Assembly (NCBI RefSeq): GCF_003569045.1
Contig: NZ_BFCB01000002.1
Location: forward strand, 1,407,506 to 1,471,505
Length of the DNA stretch: 64,000 bases
Origin: Aggregatilinea lenta
GTDB lineage: Bacteria; Chloroflexota; Anaerolineae; Aggregatilineales; Aggregatilineaceae
Direction of reading: 5' to 3'
The notes under the pieces were generated by a model. It saw only the letters and a program-made list of their open reading frames with translations, was not told the origin of the DNA and ran no database searches. A program made the position numbers and the translations under genes. Of this stretch, positions 58,236-58,904 are shown in pieces (position 1 is the first letter of the stretch; each line of letters opens with the position of its first letter).

Positions 58236-58290
58236 TGTTTTTCGCCGGGGCGGATCTGTGACCTGCCCGACCCTTGCTTTTCCCTGATCC

Positions 58291-58608
58291 CTATTCCCCG
58301 GTCCCTGTTCCCTGCTCTCCCGCAAACAGCCGCGCGAAGCCCGGATAGGCCACCAGCGGGATCACCTCGAACGCGATCAGCCCGGCCTGCACCAGCGGCA
58401 GCGTGCCCAGCACGGCGCGCGCCTCGTCCGCGTCCGCGCATTCCAGCACCAGCACCGCCTCGTGCCGGTCCGTGCGGAAATACAACTCGCGGATCACGCC
58501 CTCCTGATGCAGCGCCCAGGCCCGCGCCGCCTCCGCCTTACTAAGCGGTGCGGTGAATGCCTCGCCCGGCACGCCGGGAATCTCATGCTCAATCGCCAGA
58601 ATTTTCAT
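58291..58608 (-). CDS. Small YciI/muconolactone-isomerase-like protein
   Basis: 105 residues from the ATG at 58608, which follows GGGAGGG. The pattern MKILAIEHEI, a central helix (SKAEAARAWALHQEGVI), RELYFRTDRHEAVLVLECADADEARAVLGTLPLV is that of a ferredoxin-like dimeric alpha/beta-barrel of the muconolactone isomerase/YCII group. No catalytic residue can be fixed. It is divergent from the methyltransferase leader. The biological role is open. Confidence 0.6.
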   Translation of the reverse strand: MKILAIEHEIPGVPGEAFTAPLSKAEAARAWALHQEGVIRELYFRTDRHEAVLVLECADADEARAVLGTLPLVQAGLIAFEVIPLVAYPGFARLFAGEQGTGTGE

Positions 58609-58640
58609 GCGGCCCTCCCTCATAGGTATCCCAAAATCGA

Positions 58641-58669
58641 TTGACGCTCCCGATTTTACATGCTACGAT
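58641..58669 (+). promoter_or_regulatory. Sigma-70 promoter of the methyltransferase transcript
   Basis: TTGACG (58641-58646) and TACGAT (58664-58669) have a 17-bp spacer. It is one of the best promoter matches in the window. Transcription would start near 58676, giving a leader of about 228 nt. Confidence 0.7.
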
Positions 58670-58709
58670 GGGTCCGGTACTTCGTTCATAGACCCAAAGG
58701 ATCATCCTC

Positions 58710-58745
58710 GTGGGCATCACTGACAGCATGCGCTTGCGGCAGTAA
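58710..58745 (+). CDS. Candidate 11-codon leader peptide
   Basis: GTG start with AAAGGA (58696-58701) 8 nt upstream; the product would be MGITDSMRLRQ, ending in TAA at 58743-58745, three bases before the left arm of the long hairpin. The size and position match leader peptides of attenuators. It has no run of a single amino acid, so which ribosome stall would matter is not evident. It could also be chance. Confidence 0.4.
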   Translation: MGITDSMRLRQ

Positions 58746-58747
58746 CC

Positions 58748-58813
58748 CGCTAAAACGCGCAGGCATTCCCCAGCGTTTTTTCCACCATCATCCAACTGGT
58801 GCGCGTTTTAGCG
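58748..58813 (+). promoter_or_regulatory. Candidate attenuator: two mutually exclusive hairpins
   Basis: Long form: a perfect 14-bp stem, 58748-58761 with 58800-58813, loop 38 nt. Short form: 58752-58758 (AAAACGC) with 58773-58779 (GCGTTTT), which ends in a run of six T (58776-58781) like a weak terminator. The two use the same left arm, so only one can form at a time. Confidence 0.5.
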
Positions 58814-58904
58814 TCGTCGCGTCGGCTCCCTTTCGCGTCGCACGAACGCCTTGCCGCATCCCGGTCCGCCCGGCCCGGCAGGTGGGTATGATGAGGAAAG
58901 TCCA

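Follow-up and report, generated by a model that had tools for sequence, protein, structure and literature searches.

In the window, by which we mean the whole 64-kb stretch of Aggregatilinea lenta DNA analysed here, a class I SAM-dependent methyltransferase gene is preceded by an 11-codon leader ORF whose peptide contains MRLR, the drug-dependent arrest site of ErmDL. Since this arrest motif stands ahead of the gene and is kept across distant relatives, as R-x-R or R-x-W, the methyltransferase gene is probably switched on by macrolide-type drugs. Drug-arrest leaders before methyltransferases are already known (erm, tlrB); what is new is the family under control, its occurrence in more than one class, and the natural R-x-W leaders. 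A literature search of open-licence papers turned up no published leader of this type, either for this methyltransferase family or in Chloroflexota; a paper on erm upstream regions counts Chloroflexota among its erm genes (PMC11264731). Arrest leaders mark genes that are induced in response to ribosome-blocking antibiotics. The present one marks a methyltransferase family outside every named resistance family in the libraries searched, and it offers a direct test for a new kind of macrolide-class resistance.

Leader ORF and its conservation

The region 58624-58904 lies between a divergent minus-strand gene (58294-58623), whose product is muconolactone isomerase-like in a profile search, and the methyltransferase gene (Table 1). 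The promoter-like site is the single match in 3 kb, where 0.5 ± 0.7 were expected, and the 14 orthologous leaders of the order have promoter-like sites 47-74 nt upstream of the leader start, each being the best match in a 100-nt range and weak when taken alone. Downstream of the muconolactone isomerase-like gene, positions 58270-58318 form an intergenic pyrimidine-rich stretch with repeated TCCCTG/GTCCCTG-like units. The original prediction had described the promoter, the GTG ORF with its Shine-Dalgarno sequence, a 14-bp stem, and a 7-bp hairpin, all of which are present where it placed them. It was also right that the peptide lacks an amino-acid run, but MRLR went unrecognised; its account of the signal, left blank there, is improved by the conserved R-x-[R/W], a macrolide-dependent arrest motif.

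Table 1. Positions of the leader, hairpin, pairing, and gene features in the window
Feature	Position	Strand	Basis or remark
Sigma-70-like promoter TTGACG-17-TACGAT	58641..58669	+	Promoter scan
5' half of predicted long-range helix (leader ribosome-binding region)	58694..58711	+	Folding prediction
Shine-Dalgarno AAAGGA of leader ORF	58696..58701	+	8 nt upstream of GTG start
Leader ORF, GTG start, 11 codons, MGITDSMRLRQ and stop	58710..58745	+	Motif conserved in orthologues
Arg-Leu-Arg codons CGC TTG CGG, predicted drug-dependent arrest site	58731..58739	+	Analogy with ErmDL and tlrB; conserved as R-x-R or R-x-W
Left arm of perfect 14-bp stop-proximal stem	58748..58761	+	Hairpin at this place in 14/14 order leaders
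7-bp alternative hairpin, earlier read as terminator, not supported	58752..58779	+	Arms 58752-58758/58773-58779
Right arm of 14-bp stem	58800..58813	+	Conserved in G107 and G140
3' half of predicted helix, over methyltransferase Shine-Dalgarno GAGGA (58893-58897) and start codon	58891..58908	+	Folding prediction
Class I SAM-dependent methyltransferase, 260 aa	58905..59687	+	Pfam Methyltransf_11 E 2.8e-14; AlphaFold model, fold search

Protein searches with the methyltransferase gave hits in 23 of 154 genomes of the order and 11 of 396 genomes drawn from the class (E ≤ 1e-50), and in 17 of 400 genomes drawn from the phylum (E ≤ 1e-45); these sets overlap, and each contains the genome of the window itself. 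A scan of named genomes yielded 19 methyltransferase loci, many of which are the same records as in the other searches, and its six weak loci (L059-L064) were excluded. The 45 loci taken comprise the 23 of the order, L053, L056, and L058, and the 19 of L065-L083; 42 were tested after the duplicates L068 and L075 and the upstream-truncated L066 had been dropped. The upstream regions of seven distant relatives (L036-L042; 31-35% identity), inspected by eye and uncounted in the test, contained no comparable leader. Searches of plasmids (E limit 1e-20) and viral contigs found no methyltransferase relative, and thus there is no sign of mobility.

Within the order, a leader starting approximately 160-210 nt upstream of the methyltransferase gene is present at 14 of the 23 loci. 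Eight of these peptides carry R-x-R (MGITDSMRLRQ, MCGSIRLRL, MGMITRLRSGRFIR, MTYDIMRLRNHH, MATYYIRLRNLV, MGICITGTRIRSRASTEA, MWYVVWMMVRLR, and MPVMIRMRSAAA) and six carry R-x-W (MTTQILRLWIPRIRA, MVCMIRIWVSQTSAS, MCVVIRIWIPQQK, MCGMIRTIRIWIPQLPVS, MFVFITRMIRIWTSASQ, and MCVVIRIWIPQL). Nine more leaders are found outside the order, in other Chloroflexota, including those of Thermosporothrix (MGIVLYRLRVR), Ktedonospora (MGITRNRIKR...), G751 (MGVVCIRLWIRA), G369 (MATFIRRLRIAR), and Chloroflexi bacterium 54-19 (L058). Where a leader has several R-x-[R/W] sequences, the first was taken as the motif. Outside the motif the peptides are hardly alike, near relatives excepted, and the Arg codons vary (CGC, CGT, CGG, CGA, AGG, and AGA are all used), indicating that the residues are conserved and not the DNA. 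The predicted P site falls at residues 6-13 across the leaders; this position and the retention of R-x-R or R-x-W would, by analogy with characterised arrest peptides, fit a sensor of an exit-tunnel drug. No leader is visible at 19 of the 42 loci, including nine of the 23 in the order; at no fewer than five of these nine (at least L026, L027, L029, L031, and L034), another gene lies closely upstream as judged by eye. In the leaderless L027, L029, and L034, the methyltransferase gene often lies close behind one encoding a protein with a similar QQLYxxxL-like C terminus, an arrangement suggestive of an operon.

The conservation of the small ORF was assessed with a fixed rule (start codon, 4-nt Shine-Dalgarno match, 7-35 residues, and R-x-[R/W] in the first 14 residues, at most 400 nt upstream), in which the motif itself had been chosen after the first leaders had been read. 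This rule was passed by 20 of the 42 loci, compared with 3.4 ± 1.7 (maximum 10) in 500 dinucleotide-shuffle sets, by two of the 42 loci on the reverse strand, and by 157 of 2000 random 400-nt stretches of the window. The comparison of orthologous upstream regions, which the original prediction had proposed as its check, thus speaks for a conserved ORF. Ten of the 14 order leaders are among those passing; L020, L021, L023, and L025 fail the Shine-Dalgarno rule and were chosen by eye. Among the loci that pass, L072-L074 are near copies of one another, and the pass of L082 is probably due to chance. In an unguided count, R-x-R was the commonest of 400 residue pairs, with 16 loci versus 8 for the next. 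On a quick maximum-likelihood methyltransferase tree, the labels none, R-x-R, and R-x-W require eight changes, and R-x-W alone requires three, at least two of which are forced by well supported (starred) branches. As reconstructed from these sequences, R-x-R and R-x-W interchange on the tree.

Stop-proximal hairpin and long-range pairing

The 14-bp stem, whose left arm begins two bases past the leader stop codon, is the window's form of a hairpin that recurs just past the leader stop in the order. No other perfect inverted repeat in the 64 kb has arms of at least 14 separated by 3-60, and 100 shuffles contained 0.03 on average and at most 1. In all 14 order leaders, the sequence following the leader stop has a more stable fold than its shuffles (z -1.4 to -5.1, mean -2.76); the z values are -0.26 for the stretch ahead of the gene and -0.33 for the post-stop sequence at seven loci outside the order. 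The stem is nearly unchanged in G107 and G140, the latter having one A-U to G-U replacement, and more distant relatives of the order have arms of other sequence with a hairpin at the same place. Regarding the compensatory changes that the original prediction had expected, the position of the hairpin is kept, but no change on both sides of the stem is present among the window, G107, and G140. Its description of the leader as attenuator-like gains support from the recurrence of the small ORF and the stop-proximal hairpin in orthologues. Most order leaders have a run of C in the loop of this hairpin. L024 and L030 (G062 and G071) have a possible pseudoknot just past the leader stop, with GCTGAAG, TCCCC, and CTTCAGC followed by GGGGA/AGGGA. 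An Rfam search gave no match up to E 1.

Folding of the window predicts that UCCUC of the leader (58705-58709) pairs with GAGGA of the methyltransferase Shine-Dalgarno sequence, with flanking helices CCA/UGG and GGAU/GUCC. In G062 and G071, leader codons past RIW are predicted to pair with GAGGAAUCC of the methyltransferase gene. Across the 14 order loci, not all of which are independent, the unpaired value of the start region is 0.35 with the real leader versus 0.47 with shuffled leaders (KS p 3e-4). Cognate pairs of leader and start bind better than swapped ones (p 0.004 and 0.011 in two runs), but this signal is p 0.05 without near relatives, and approximately the same value (0.05) comes from a control region lying upstream of the leader. 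At seven loci outside the order there is no leader signal (p 0.88 to 0.99); two other regions there give p 0.02, indicating that the cognate-pairing test is noisy. On average, the seven leaders tested outside the order have neither the stop-proximal hairpin nor the pairing. Folding suggests that the ribosome-binding region of the leader pairs with that of the methyltransferase gene. With a mask over the ribosome footprint alone, G062, G071, and G127 have an opened start region, and the value for the window is 0.27 both with and without the mask. Because the window stays closed under this mask and the cognate pairing is marginal without near relatives, we give translation as the likeliest output on the basis of folding and do not claim the switch itself.

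Identity of the methyltransferase

Pfam Methyltransf_11 and its relatives match the methyltransferase, and all of its NCBIfam matches, Erm included, lie under their cut-offs. An Erm identity was rejected, as no PF00398 (RrnaAD) match was obtained at E 0.001 and NF000499 scored 18.9 bits versus a cut-off of 212. The genome itself has one full-length RrnaAD match (E 1.2e-58), which we take to be KsgA, and three short ones; with the single full match so assigned, there is no sign of Erm in the genome. RlmA and TlrB have an N-terminal cysteine zinc site. An RlmA identity was also rejected, since no N-terminal cysteine cluster is present in 14 aligned proteins, and neither the 15 NCBIfam matches obtained with the window protein nor the best 25 of 60 families for the alignment include an RlmA entry. 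The sole PADLOC match, to the methyltransferase part of mad2 (residues 33-198, E 1.5e-21), probably reflects a shared domain only.

The AlphaFold model has a mean pLDDT of 76, with most of residues 156-201 poorly predicted. In Foldseek and VIA-align searches, many class I enzymes have similar scores (3bkw, RebM, TleD, MitM, and UbiG, but also Trm112-dependent enzymes such as Bud23); the fold therefore does not reveal the substrate. The nearest folds are generic class I enzymes, many of which act on small molecules. No RlmA or Erm chain is among the matches listed, which proves nothing. Judging from its leader, the methyltransferase may be an undescribed resistance gene, and we infer that the enzyme would protect the ribosome or modify the drug. 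Tentatively, it could belong to an undescribed Chloroflexota family of drug-inducible resistance enzymes that methylate an exit-tunnel drug or a new 23S rRNA site, with natural leaders using R-x-W as an arrest code alternative to R-x-R; we regard this broader proposal as possible but rather doubtful.

Proposed mechanism and known arrest systems

We propose, with fair but far from full confidence, that the leader is a ribosome-arrest attenuator in which a drug-stalled leader ribosome frees the methyltransferase start for translation. The 11-codon leader, at the 5' end of the methyltransferase mRNA, would be translated. In the absence of drug, its ribosome-binding region would be paired with the methyltransferase Shine-Dalgarno sequence and start codon, keeping the gene closed. 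A macrolide-type drug in the exit tunnel would stall the ribosome on MRLR, the P site being occupied by Leu9 and the A site by Arg10. A ribosome held there would keep the long-range helix from closing while the hairpin past the stop still forms, and the methyltransferase would be translated.

The same arrest leader could also act through mRNA stabilisation or Rho-dependent termination instead of opening the start region, which we consider unlikely though worth keeping in view. Published accounts tie erm expression to mRNA stability independent of stalling (PMC5118997) and describe coupling of translation repression to Rho in toiL (PMC12121999), and the closed state of the window start under the footprint mask agrees with such an output; against it, closure of the start region is leader-specific in the order. 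A further alternative is transcription attenuation, in which the 7-bp hairpin and its run of six T would end transcription near 58781, where the original prediction had suggested a test for early termination, unless the 14-bp stem forms. The 7-bp hairpin does exist and shares an arm with the 14-bp stem, but four of the six T (58776-58779) lie inside its stem and are followed merely by TT and CC; it has a 14-nt loop and is weak, at -5.6 kcal/mol, where the 14-bp stem reaches -21 kcal/mol. No intrinsic terminator was detected at the window leader in two scans, and the T run and 7-bp hairpin are missing from the two closest relatives, G107 and G140, although both keep the 14-bp stem. Early termination in the window is thus improbable. 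Such an output may exist in the wider family, since in G369 (L065), from another family of the class, a clear intrinsic terminator (9-bp stem with T5) separates the RRLR leader from the methyltransferase gene, lying approximately 60 to 35 nt upstream of the start of that gene. An antiterminator could form there by pairing of AGAAAGGAACC with an upstream GGTTCCTTTTT, and this relative may therefore use transcription attenuation.

Sensing of arginine or charged Arg-tRNA, as in leaders of amino-acid biosynthesis, would account for Arg being the conserved residue. However, the leaders mostly have just two or three Arg codons, the second Arg of the motif is replaced by Trp in 7 of the 23 leaders, and the regulated gene is a methyltransferase and no arginine gene, making this explanation very improbable. 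We find it scarcely credible that the stem is a DNA element (a regulator site, transposon end, or repeat) and the ORF a product of chance. The palindrome is perfect and its arms start 52 bp apart, but hairpins of other sequence recur past the leader stop in orthologues and the ORF motif is conserved. Moreover, the 14-bp arm has no other exact copy in the 6.2-Mb genome and is therefore not a mobile palindromic repeat, the origin that the original prediction had named as its refutation.

The ribosome-arrest attenuator resembles leaders of the ErmDL, tlrB, and hflXr type in that a short ORF with a ribosome-binding site precedes the gene and a conserved R/K-x-R/K lies in the first dozen codons (RLR in the window; R-x-R or R-x-W in the 20 of 42 loci). 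The closest known system is the tylosin-induced Bacillus subtilis tlrB (yxjB, RlmAII), which is controlled by the RYR leader MIIQFIRYR (PMC6851288). As tlrB also places an R-x-R leader ahead of a class I methyltransferase, and erm leaders are similar, the original statement that no such leader had been described before a class I methyltransferase does not hold. Both systems have a helix closing the methyltransferase start and the leader's own start, here predicted by folding. Unlike the window, tlrB has an intrinsic terminator and a NusG pause, its RYR is at the extreme C terminus, and its enzyme is RlmAII, to which the window methyltransferase has no match; the tlrB leader is not arrested by erythromycin (PMC6851288).

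In Listeria hflXr / rli80, a short RLR ORF likewise controls a non-erm gene, but there the output is transcription attenuation and the product a ribosome-splitting factor (PMC6310831). The E. coli toiL uORF, on which a drug-stalled ribosome opens a downstream start as proposed here, differs in sensing at least five drug classes, in the involvement of Rho, and in its toxin-antitoxin genes (PMC12121999). The arrest site of ErmDL is RLR, with Leu7 occupying the P site (PMC8298421); the window shares its MRLR, and the same P-site Leu and A-site Arg are predicted there. The ErmDL leader regulates an Erm, whereas the window methyltransferase has no RrnaAD match and scores far under the Erm cut-off. 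Arg8 to Trp relieves ErmDL arrest with telithromycin, and the motif matters less with erythromycin (PMC8298421). Motifs of erythromycin-dependent arrest were identified by inverse toeprinting as +X(+), XP(X), +X(W), and XP(W) (PMC6238534), and the naturally occurring exchanges of R-x-R and R-x-W put this published list of arrest motifs to the test outside E. coli.
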